Positions 2,463 to 9,388 of a stretch of 45,053 bases of DNA are shown here, in pieces. Positions within the stretch are counted from its first letter, which is position 1, and each line of letters opens with the position of its first letter. Position numbers and translations under genes: made by a program. The DNA comes from Allorhizocola rhizosphaerae (GTDB lineage Bacteria > Actinomycetota > Actinomycetes > Mycobacteriales > Micromonosporaceae), in contig NZ_QJUG01000049.1 of NCBI RefSeq assembly GCF_003426775.1, forward strand, positions 1 through 45,053. Direction: 5' to 3'. The notes under the pieces are model-generated. The model was not told where the DNA came from, made no database searches, and worked only from the letters and a program-made list of their open reading frames with translations.

Positions 2463-2501
2463 CGCCACGCTGGCCCGCCTTACTGCCGGGCCAGCGTGGC
2501 G
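2463..2501. terminator. Hairpin terminator after the hemerythrin gene
   Basis: A perfect 15-bp inverted repeat (CGCCACGCTGGCCCG and its complement) with a 9-nt loop and no following T-run, as is common for actinobacterial terminators. It separates the diiron operon from the riboswitch transcript downstream. Confidence 0.75.
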
Positions 2502-2559
2502 ACGCCTGCGGCAGTCATCCTGCGCGGGCGGGAAGCGGGCGTGTTACGGTACCGGCACA

Positions 2560-2672
2560 GGTCATGAGCGCCAGCGCCAAGCCCCGGCTCGCTGGCTGGC
2601 AACCCTCCGTTCGCGGGCGGGGTGCTCCGGGTGAGGACCAGGCTCGGCACACCACGTGCCGGGCAAGCCGCG
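2560..2672 (+). promoter_or_regulatory. SAM-IV-type S-adenosylmethionine riboswitch
   Basis: The leader starts GGTCATGAGCGCCAGCGCC and closely follows the SAM-IV aptamer as I know it. P1 is GGTC with GACC (about 2560-2563 and 2636-2639). P2 is GCCAGCG with CGCTGGC (2570-2576 and 2590-2596). CCCGG (2583-2587) can pair with CCGGG (2627-2631) as a pseudoknot. P3 runs through GGCAACCCTCC with GGGCGGGGT. A further hairpin CGGCAC/GTGCCG follows. The SAM-IV-specific second pseudoknot is possible between CGCGG (2612-2616) and CCGCG (2668-2672), which abuts the AAAGGAG Shine-Dalgarno sequence of the next gene. This geometry suggests translational control by SAM. The match is from memory of the family consensus, not a search. 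Confidence 0.88.
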
Positions 2673-2685
2673 AAAGGAGATTCGC

Positions 2686-3246
2686 ATGACGGTGCTGCGC
2701 TTCCGTTGCGCCGGCCCCGATGACGCCGACCAGGTCGCGCTACTACACGCCGACAGCTGGCGCCGACACTATCGGGGCGCCTACGCCGATTCGTTCCTCG
2801 ACGGCGATGTCGTGGCCGACCGCCGTGCCGTGTGGCAGGCGCGGCTGGCGACACCCGCGGCCAAAGCCGAGACGATCCTTGCCGAGCACCAGCACGACGG
2901 GCGCCTGCTGGGCTTCATCCATGTCGCGTTCGACGAGGATCCGCGTTGGGGCAGCCTGGTCGACAACTTGCATGTTTCCCACGAACTGCGCCGCGCCGGC
3001 ATCGGCACCCGCCTGCTGGCTCACGGGGCTGGAGCCGTCACTCGACGAGCGACGACCGGCACCGGGATGTACCTATGGGTGCTGCAGCAGAACACCGAAG
3101 CACAGCAGTTTTACCGCGCCCGCGGAGCAGCGCCCGCCGAGTCGGCCGCGGTGACGCCACCCGGTGGTGACCCGGCCCGCCTCAACGGCACGCCCCGCAG
3201 CCTGCGCATGGTGTGGCCGGACGCCTCGCTCCTGGCGAGGTCCTAA
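2686..3246 (+). CDS. GNAT family N-acetyltransferase, riboswitch-controlled
   Basis: 186 residues with the GNAT fold: an N-terminal FRCAGPDDADQVALLHADSW segment, an LGFIHVAFDE strand pair near residue 75, and the acetyl-CoA pyrophosphate loop VSHELRRAGIGTRLL (R-R-x-G-x-G, residues about 98-112), then LWVLQQNTEAQQFYRARG, the usual motif-B helix. The ATG is chosen because AAAGGAG lies 7 nt before it; an in-frame upstream start would fall inside the riboswitch. The SAM-IV element suggests expression when SAM is low, so a substrate in methionine, homocysteine or sulfur metabolism is plausible but is inference. It converges on the next gene with a 4-bp overlap. Confidence 0.85.
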   Translation: MTVLRFRCAGPDDADQVALLHADSWRRHYRGAYADSFLDGDVVADRRAVWQARLATPAAKAETILAEHQHDGRLLGFIHVAFDEDPRWGSLVDNLHVSHELRRAGIGTRLLAHGAGAVTRRATTGTGMYLWVLQQNTEAQQFYRARGAAPAESAAVTPPGGDPARLNGTPRSLRMVWPDASLLARS

Positions 3247-3996: not shown

Positions 3997-4997
3997 TTAG
4001 AAGTCCCGATGCGTCGCCAACCTCGCCAACGCGTCCAATTCGGCGACCGCCCGTTCCCCCAACCCCGCCACGCGCAGGTGTTCCAGCGCCCGCGAGAGCT
4101 GTTCGTCGATCTGCGCCAGGCTCCACCGCCTCCCTCCCGCCTCCTCGACCAGCCGGGCCGCGTTGGCCAGGTCGCCCCGCGACAGTTTGTCGTCCCTGCG
4201 ATACAGCGCGGCCAGCGCCCGCCCCGCCGGATTGTCGGCGCTCAGCGCCGCGATCACCGGCAGGGTCTTCTTGCGGCTGCGCAGATCCGAGAACACCGGC
4301 TTGCCGGTGACGGCCGGATCGCCCCAGATGCCGAGCATGTCGTCGACCACCTGGAAGGCCAGGCCCAGCCGCTCGCCGAACGACGCGAGGTGCTCGATCT
4401 GGGCCATGGTGCCGCCGCCGAGCAGCCCGCCCAGCGCGCACGAGCAGCTCAGCAGCGCGCCCGTCTTGCGCTGCGCCATCAGCAGGCACTCACCCAGCCC
4501 GACATCGTTGCGCTTTTCGAACGCCAGGTCGGCGCTCTGGCCGTCGATCAAGTGTTGCACGGCCCGTTCGAGCAGGCTGGTCCCGATACCTTGAAAGCAA
4601 AGGGTTTTGAAGGCCAGGGCCAAAAGGGCGTCGCCGGCCAGGATCGCCTGATTCACGCCGAAGATGCGCCAGGCGGTCGGGCGGTGCCGCCGAGTCTGGT
4701 CGGCGTCCATGACGTCGTCGTGCAGCAGTGAGAAATTGTGCACCAGCTCCACCGCCACCGCGCCGGGCAGGGCGGCTCCGGCCGACCCGCCGACCGCTTC
4801 GGCCGAAACGAGAACCAGCGCGGGCCGCAGCGCCTTGCCCGGCCCGCCGGCCGTGTCCCAGCCGAAATGGTATTCGGCGATCTGCCGGACCGCCTGCGGC
4901 AGATCGGAAACGGCCTGGCGCAGAGCCGGATCCAGCAGGCTCCGGCTCCACGTCAGCACCTCGGGCGCGCTGCGGGCGGCCCGCTCCTCAAGTGTGG

Positions 4998-5001
<4 letters not shown>
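3997..5001 (-). CDS. Polyprenyl (isoprenyl) diphosphate synthase, putative encapsulin cargo
   Basis: 334 residues, a complete trans-isoprenyl diphosphate synthase, which condenses allylic diphosphates with IPP. Visible motifs: GKALRP (55-60, IPP binding), first aspartate-rich motif DDVMD (95-99), second aspartate-rich motif DDMLGIWGD (220-228), and [16 protein letters not shown] after it. A Phe lies five residues before DDVMD, the pattern of short-chain (about C15-C20) synthases, so a GPP/FPP/GGPP product is likely. The ATG overlaps the shell-gene stop (ATGA), so the pair is translationally coupled. Polyprenyl transferases are a known predicted cargo class of Family 2B encapsulins. The N-terminus is only about 50 residues before the catalytic core and lacks the long disordered Ala/Pro/Gly-rich loading extension usual for such cargo. 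Confidence 0.9.
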
Positions 5002-6419
<1,418 letters not shown>

Positions 6420-8399: not shown

Positions 8400-9388
8400 C
8401 TCCTTCGCGCCGCGATGCGAGCCGCGACGGCAAGTGCGGGAATGAGAAGCCCCAACAAAAGAATTCTTGCGGTGGGTACGGGCTGCGCCGCGCGAAGCGT
8501 TGGAGCGACTTCACGTTTGAGTGTCGGGCTCGGACTGTCCACTGAGGACGGCTCCGGCAGGGGTATCGATGGCGGCGGTGGCCTTGGCTGGGCCGGCCGC
8601 ACACTCGGCGATGGCGATGGCGATGGCGATGGCGATGGCGATGGCGATGGCGATGGCGATGGCGATGGAGATGGCGACGGCGACGGCGATGGCGATGGCA
8701 GCGCACGCGGGCACGGCGCAGCATCGGACGTTGTCGTGGGCGACCCAAAATCGGTGAACGTCGCGCTGTCCGGCGCGCTGAGCGGGATGTGATACAGGCG
8801 GCCGCTGGCGTTGTGCAAGGCGTGCAAGGTACCGGCCGGATCCATCACCACGCCTCCGTACGAGCCGTCACCGGGCATGCCGTCCAGCTGTTCGGAAAGC
8901 GCCACGCGGCCGGAGTCCGGATCGATACGGGCCAAGCGCGGCCCGCCGGGCCCGCGAGTGTCCACTCCGTACAGTGCGCCGTCGTCCGGCCACACGTCCC
9001 AGTCACCGATGCGCGGCCTGTCACGCAGCGGCACACTGCGCACCACCGCCAGCGTCCCGAGGTCCAGCACGACGATCGCGGTCCCGTTTGACAGCAGCCA
9101 GCGTCCGTCGGCGATCGTGCCAAGATAGGCACCCTGCAGCCCGCGCGGCACAGGCGCGCGCACCGCAAGCTCGCCATCGCGCGTAATCGTGACCAGGTCA
9201 CGCCCATCGGCGACCGCGTGGTACAGGTCCTGCCCCGGGTCGTAGCCCAGCGCGTTCACCTCCACCGGCAACGGGCCTGTCGGGAACTGCGCGCCGCGCA
9301 CCACAAATACGCAAGGCCCAGCGGCCGGGACCGGGACCGTCCCGGCCGCGATCACCGTGGAAGCGAGCCCGCTGAGCAGCATGAACAC
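8396..9388 (-). CDS. Secreted, surface-anchored beta-propeller-like protein with Ser-Pro repeat stalk
   Basis: 330 residues. An N-terminal hydrophobic stretch (about 3-22) looks like a signal peptide. Residues about 35-220 are made of short beta repeats (VNALGYDPGQDLYHAVADG, GDWDVWPDDGALYGVDTRG), typical of DUF6923/YVTN-like propellers. Then comes a long (Ser-Pro)n tract, a Pro-rich linker, and a C-terminal membrane anchor LLLGLLIPALAVAARI followed by Arg residues. The Ser-Pro tract would act as a wall-spanning stalk. Role unknown; ligand binding outside the cell is inference. The start may be the GTG given or an ATG two codons later, which lies 8 nt behind TACCAT. Overlaps the DUF4239 gene by 4 bp. 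Confidence 0.7.
   Translation of the reverse strand: MFMLLSGLASTVIAAGTVPVPAAGPCVFVVRGAQFPTGPLPVEVNALGYDPGQDLYHAVADGRDLVTITRDGELAVRAPVPRGLQGAYLGTIADGRWLLSNGTAIVVLDLGTLAVVRSVPLRDRPRIGDWDVWPDDGALYGVDTRGPGGPRLARIDPDSGRVALSEQLDGMPGDGSYGGVVMDPAGTLHALHNASGRLYHIPLSAPDSATFTDFGSPTTTSDAAPCPRALPSPSPSPSPSPSPSPSPSPSPSPSPSPSPSPSVRPAQPRPPPPSIPLPEPSSVDSPSPTLKREVAPTLRAAQPVPTARILLLGLLIPALAVAARIAARRR
8608..8700. repeat. Hexanucleotide tandem repeat (CGATGG)n encoding Ser-Pro
   Basis: About 15 copies of a 6-bp unit in phase with the minus-strand surface-protein gene, giving the Ser-Pro stalk. One side has slightly diverged copies (GATGGA, GACGGC). Copy-number change by slippage would lengthen or shorten the stalk two residues at a time without breaking the frame. 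Confidence 0.9.

Follow-up and report, generated by a model that had tools for sequence, protein, structure and literature searches.

Riboswitches of the SAM-IV class have been reported to control metX/metY and one class V aminotransferase gene (PMC4239095, PMC8269248). The stretch of DNA analysed here, the window, comprises 45,053 nucleotides of Allorhizocola rhizosphaerae (contig NZ_QJUG01000049.1, positions 1 to 45,053) and contains a leader of this kind before a gene for a GNAT-family N-acetyltransferase. This raises the question of what such an enzyme does under the control of SAM. The answer that we favour, with moderate confidence, is that the SAM-IV riboswitch represses a lone small-molecule N-acetyltransferase at high SAM, and that the most probable substrate of this enzyme is an amine that contains sulfur or resembles methionine or cysteine.

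The SAM-IV aptamer

A sequence-only reading of the window had recognised a SAM-IV-type riboswitch from its pairings and suggested an Infernal comparison with the Rfam family RF00634. In a cmscan of the window, this family matches positions 2560-2675 (+) with 97.2 bits (E 1.1e-16) against a gathering score of 38, spanning model positions 1-116 of 116 without truncation. The element belongs to the SAM-IV class, and the proposal is borne out. Its parts are as follows.

2560..2675, +: SAM-IV aptamer (full-length Rfam match)
2560..2563 / 2636-2639, +: P1, GGTC / GACC (sequence, Rfam match, leader alignment)
2583..2587 / 2627-2631, +: PK1, CCCGG (P2 loop) / CCGGG, without variation in 28/28 GNAT-linked leaders
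2610..2616 / 2668..2674, +: PK2, TTCGCGG (P3 loop, GNAT-type) / CCGCGAA, a 7-bp pairing

The leader comprises P1, P2, P3 and P5 plus two pseudoknots, with no P4. PK1 joins the P2 loop to the strand after P3, while PK2 joins the P3 loop to the 3' tail after P5. Every pairing named beforehand (P1, P2, CCCGG/CCGGG and CGCGG/CCGCG) is present in the sequence, CGCGG lying inside the longer TTCGCGG. Across an alignment of 28 related GNAT-linked leaders, this structure is paired in 96.7% of cells, and sliding the partners by 1-3 columns as a control lowers pairing to 29-47%. Changes on both sides occur in 9 pairs, mostly in P5, compared with a shuffled mean of 4.6. PK1 is 100% paired and invariant, so the alignment gives conservation but no covariation information for it; PK2 is paired in 89.5% of cells, with one pair altered on both sides. 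The switch itself is well supported, and SAM is its predicted ligand.

Might this be a variant of SAM-IV tuned to another ligand, one suited to the GNAT? The GNAT-type leaders do differ in their P3 loop and PK2 register, and the basal pair of P3 is G-U in 15/28. However, their core positions fit the SAM-IV consensus at the invariant columns, the match in the window clears the gathering threshold by a wide margin, and the differences fall on the expression-platform side (loop, PK2 and Shine-Dalgarno sequence, SD). A change of ligand is therefore quite improbable.

Promoter and expression platform

The aptamer is embedded in a compact set of upstream and downstream elements.

2463..2501, no strand: perfect 15-bp inverted repeat between the hemerythrin-like gene and the riboswitch (repeat search)
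2542..2550, +: extended -10 promoter TGTTACGGT (TGnTAnnnT), ending ~10 nt before P1 (sequence)
2605..2608, +: CTCC in P3, a possible anti-SD, complementary to GGAG 2676-2679 and in PK2 register
2674..2679, +: Shine-Dalgarno AAGGAG, 6 nt before the ATG at 2686 and beginning where PK2 ends (sequence)
2686..3246, +: GNAT-family N-acetyltransferase, 186 aa (P0001), monocistronic (Pfam PF00583, 7.3e-10)

The motif TGnTAnnnT lies 8-11 nt ahead of P1 in 29/32 GNAT-linked leaders, for a background rate of 0.13%. With this extended -10 element ~10 nt ahead of P1 in the window, transcription probably starts at the aptamer itself. At the other end, the prediction that the second pseudoknot abuts the Shine-Dalgarno sequence proved correct, since CCGCGAA (2668-2674) meets AAGGAG (2674-2679). 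A repeat search found the complementarity between P3/PK2 and the SD to extend over 12 nt, 92% complementary. In 28/32 GNAT leaders, 15/65 aminotransferase leaders and 0/14 ABC leaders, 3 nt or more of the SD are taken up by the duplex of the P3 strand and loop with the tail and SD. The gap from PK2 to the SD is 0-9 nt in nearly all GNAT leaders examined; the SD lies ~26 nt or more past PK2 in ABC-transporter leaders and 17-40 nt past it in many aminotransferase leaders. Because CTCC is common across SAM-IV and the SDs are always GGAG-like, the informative part of this pairing is its closeness and register. Such an arrangement supports a translational expression platform.

In the proposed mechanism, SAM would stabilise an aptamer present from the first nucleotides of the transcript, together with its 3' pseudoknot PK2. 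Abutting the SD and able to extend into it through CUCC of P3 and GGAG, PK2 would then block ribosome binding. When SAM, and hence methionine, is scarce, PK2 would open and the acetyltransferase would be made. With a pseudoknot strand that continues directly into the Shine-Dalgarno sequence, this leader subtype offers a simple model for SAM-IV translational control.

The acetyltransferase and its relatives

The start codon at 2686 lies 10 nt past the end of the SAM-IV match. As described earlier from sequence, the GNAT gene is on its own. Upstream, a hemerythrin-like gene terminates at 2423, and the inverted repeat, a terminator-like hairpin with no clear T run, separates it from the riboswitch; the downstream gene is convergent, overlapping the GNAT gene by 4 nt. 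The protein matches Acetyltransf_1, and its acetyl-CoA loop (Q/R)xxGx(G/A) is present as RRAGIG and conserved among the orthologs. These also keep WRRxYRGAYAD on the N-terminal side, RxGIG, WVLxQNxxAQxFY and a C-terminal GGxPxRLxGxPxKLRxxWPD; one similarity cluster takes in 120 relatives. In a search of curated families, none names the 186-aa GNAT. The closest solved relative by profile is a probable acetyltransferase of Thermus (1wk4/2cy2; E 6.3e-21 across 152 positions), an uncharacterised generic small GNAT with no assigned substrate. It shares the W..YRG..FL motif, and its alignment ends ahead of the C-terminal extension.

RimI-like and Naa10-like proteins are among the weak matches of the GNAT. 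This would suit an enzyme that acetylates a protein at lysine or the N terminus, thereby adjusting a sulfur or methylation enzyme to the level of SAM. The RimI equivalog, however, scores 30.6 where the cut-off is 86.4, the best relative among solved structures is a small GNAT of generic type, and no conserved partner gene accompanies the acetyltransferase, so that protein acetylation appears unlikely.

Distribution of the pair

By its relatives, Jidongwangia (L170) among them, the window belongs to the Micromonosporaceae. A search of 200 genomes of this family for GNAT orthologs was followed by a scan of the ortholog loci with a SAM-IV model built in this analysis. SAM-IV lies directly upstream at 12/40 ortholog loci, or 13/41 with the window, while the remaining 28/41 family orthologs have no SAM-IV within ~7 kb on each side. 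SAM control is thus not essential to the role of the enzyme. At one SAM-IV-less locus (L042), a Guanidine-I riboswitch (1308-1408, -) is found directly downstream of the GNAT ortholog. Among relatives from named genomes, a set that partly overlaps the family set, the riboswitch is directly upstream in 20/80. The named genomes with the pairing include Kribbella (L163, L167, L171), Pseudofrankia (L172), Fodinicola (L179), Amycolatopsis (L165) and Kutzneria (L238).

Gene surroundings of the GNAT orthologs are unlike one another almost everywhere; the leader thus remains with its gene across changing neighbourhoods. Judged by these sequence comparisons, the coupling is not accidental and is kept across several actinobacterial orders. 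Mapping the presence of SAM-IV onto the GNAT protein tree takes 7 changes, compared with 11.2 for shuffled labels. The leader appears clustered yet repeatedly gained or lost, with well-supported branches forcing one change only.

The neighbours of the orthologs were clustered by similarity, not every one being named individually. At this level, the neighbourhoods contain no recurring sulfur genes, no sulfur-salvage genes adjoining the GNAT, and no recurring FMN monooxygenase or M20 deacetylase beside it. Rhodanese-like genes and genes for small multidrug resistance (SMR) transporters occur at few ortholog loci only. The latter are found near GNAT orthologs at L239 (2672-2986), L232, L088 and L209.

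A lone gene of patchy distribution and shifting context also fits self-protection or resistance. Here the GNAT would act on an amino-acid antimetabolite that is toxic through a block in methionine/SAM metabolism, and falling SAM would serve as the inducing alarm through the riboswitch. GNATs of the phosphinothricin / methionine-sulfoximine type are known, copies of the present gene occur on Streptomyces plasmids, and at L239 the SMR transporter gene lies 14 nt upstream of the GNAT gene in the same direction. The SMR neighbours are few, however, and mostly found at SAM-IV-less or closely related loci. Antimetabolite detoxification is the main rival to acetylation of a sulfur-containing or methionine/cysteine-like amine, and we regard it as possible though doubtful; the two overlap, and only the substrate separates them.

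Other SAM-IV targets

What else this riboswitch class controls bears on the choice between such readings. A total of 104 SAM-IV loci were sampled in the family, GNAT members being partly fetched on purpose, so that the counts are not frequencies. A class V PLP enzyme follows at 66 (one a fragment), an ABC solute-binding protein at 14, a GNAT of the window type at 13 and a second GNAT at 7; metY, metX (L150) and a thioredoxin-like gene follow at one each, and one locus has no called gene. Class-wide, the top SAM-IV matches precede class V PLP enzymes or metY with almost no exceptions. Most of the non-GNAT targets sampled are class V PLP enzymes, ABC solute-binding proteins or metX/metY. That sulfur or amino-acid genes make up the other SAM-IV targets of the family and class is part of the case for the favoured reading.

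The source genome has only one other SAM-IV (L001, contig C191, 1486-1608, -). The gene immediately after it is of the class V PLP aminotransferase / cysteine-desulfurase-like kind, the most frequent target in the family. At further Micromonosporaceae loci (L005-L007, L013, L015, L019, L021, L026, L029, L104, L105, L114, L117 and L162), a distance of ~170-290 nt separates SAM-IV from a downstream gene for an ABC amino-acid substrate-binding protein. It is likely that this ABC system is a SAM-controlled methionine or cystine importer. A divergent SAM-IV (L154, 296-427, +) precedes a thioredoxin-like gene and forms the longest branch in the aptamer tree.

A second acetyltransferase with the same leader subtype

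The second GNAT type with a SAM-IV leader comprises 7 Micromonosporaceae genes and is an Acetyltransf_3 protein (one member of the seven scanned). Between this type and the window GNAT, neither BLASTP nor profile comparison detects any similarity. Their leaders nevertheless share a design. The loop CGYGGGYGGG occurs in 21/26 leaders of the window-type GNAT and 7/7 of the second type, compared with 0/112 SAM-IVs before other genes, and the tail AAGCC in 22/26, 7/7 and 0/112, respectively. In this analysis, the subtype with shifted PK2 and adjacent SD was found only before GNAT genes.

In a full-length tree of 116 aptamers, a branch supported at 99/93 has all 32 GNAT-linked aptamers on the same side, the two GNAT types being intermixed. 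A tree of the conserved core only does not recover this grouping (17 changes), which places its signal in the P3 loop, P5, PK2 and SD. Because the two trees disagree, a single origin of the GNAT-linked aptamers was rejected as a conclusion, and only a shared loop/PK2/SD architecture is claimed; the design could reflect either common descent or convergence. A model of the GNAT-type leader (R2) was likewise rejected as a specific marker, as its class-wide matches below ~113 bits precede other genes.

Under common descent and convergence alike, the finding of two unrelated acetyltransferases behind one SAM-IV design argues that acetylation itself is what belongs in the SAM regulon. The recurrence of the pairing in many actinobacteria, together with its use by a second, unrelated GNAT, makes it very probable that a shortage of methionine/SAM turns the acetylation on. 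More tentatively, and with rather less than even confidence, we propose an undescribed SAM-repressed acetylation step in actinobacterial sulfur-amino-acid metabolism, for which one compact cassette (extended -10, SAM-IV subtype and SD-sequestering PK2) would have been joined to two non-homologous GNATs doing the same job. Two unrelated GNAT families with one SAM-IV subtype constitute a strong genetic pointer to an unrecognised SAM-linked acetylation step, and the SAM-IV/GNAT set is a short list of enzymes to assay.

Homoserine acylation

The sequence-only reading had placed the GNAT in sulfur-amino-acid metabolism and named homoserine-like compounds among its possible substrates. The first part can stand in a general form, as the conserved SAM-IV/GNAT link across several actinobacterial orders makes a role in the SAM/methionine regulon reasonable to propose; the homoserine part is not supported. 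That the GNAT might take over a missing MetX/MetA step, as an O-acyltransferase for homoserine or another compound of the methionine pathway, is suggested by the source genome (96.7% complete), in which MetX (generic hydrolase-level matches only) and MetA were not found, and by the SAM-IV that precedes metX in another family member (L150). Yet MetX is missing from ~155/200 Micromonosporaceae genomes, most of which also lack this GNAT. MetX is present in 2/13 genomes with a SAM-IV-linked GNAT of the window type (GNAT1) versus 43/187 others (p = 0.74), and in 15/43 genomes with any GNAT1 versus 30/157 others. MetX is thus no rarer in GNAT-bearing genomes, and this absence of complementarity across the 200 genomes speaks against the GNAT as a MetX replacement. 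Known homoserine acyltransferases, moreover, are not GNATs. Homoserine acylation is accordingly the most improbable of the readings considered.

Relation to known systems

The window leader shares the whole architecture of SAM-IV RF00634, for which a cryo-EM structure is available (PMC6890682): P1, P2, P3, P5, PK1 and PK2. It differs in the shifted PK2 register TTCGCGG/CCGCGAA, in the SD directly behind PK2 and in a target that is not a known methionine or sulfur gene. In Streptomyces clavuligerus, a SAM-IV precedes a class V aminotransferase (PMC8269248). This is the same class before a single gene of unclear role, of the kind also found behind the second SAM-IV of the source genome (L001), but with another loop and tail type, an SD usually further downstream and a PLP enzyme in place of the GNAT. 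The open-access papers searched, a scope outside which the original SAM-IV paper (Weinberg 2008) falls, contain no description of a SAM-IV/GNAT pair. With the riboswitch class known, what appears to be new here is the leader subtype and its two GNAT targets.

For the enzyme, the best functional precedent is acetylation in the salvage of S-modified cysteine in Bacillus. Bacillus subtilis ScmL (YxeL) is an acetyltransferase in S-(2-succino)cysteine breakdown (PMC12757645). The likeness, that of an acetyltransferase whose substrate is a sulfur amino acid, is one of functional analogy only. The ScmL gene is in an operon with a monooxygenase and an M20 deacetylase, whereas the window GNAT stands alone, and the FMN monooxygenase plus M20 deacetylase of ScmL/YtmI-type operons do not recur beside its orthologs. 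By comparison with ScmL on S-succinocysteine, acetylation by the window enzyme could serve sulfur salvage, or it could disarm an antimetabolite; its function is probably in sulfur-amino-acid salvage or detoxification.

Other features of the window

At 3997-6419 (-), a gene for an encapsulin shell protein that includes a cNMP-binding domain (SrpI-like, PF19307, 469.9 bits) adjoins a polyprenyl synthetase gene, an arrangement suggestive of a family 2 encapsulin with terpenoid cargo. A match to Rfam Sernc350 ('Saccharopolyspora sRNA 350'; 141 bits) at 5877-6383 (+) lies wholly antisense inside the encapsulin coding sequence and probably reflects coding conservation rather than an RNA. The region ~8510-8720 is strongly repetitive, reading AIAIAI or RHRHRH in overlapping ORFs, and is probably a simple tandem repeat.
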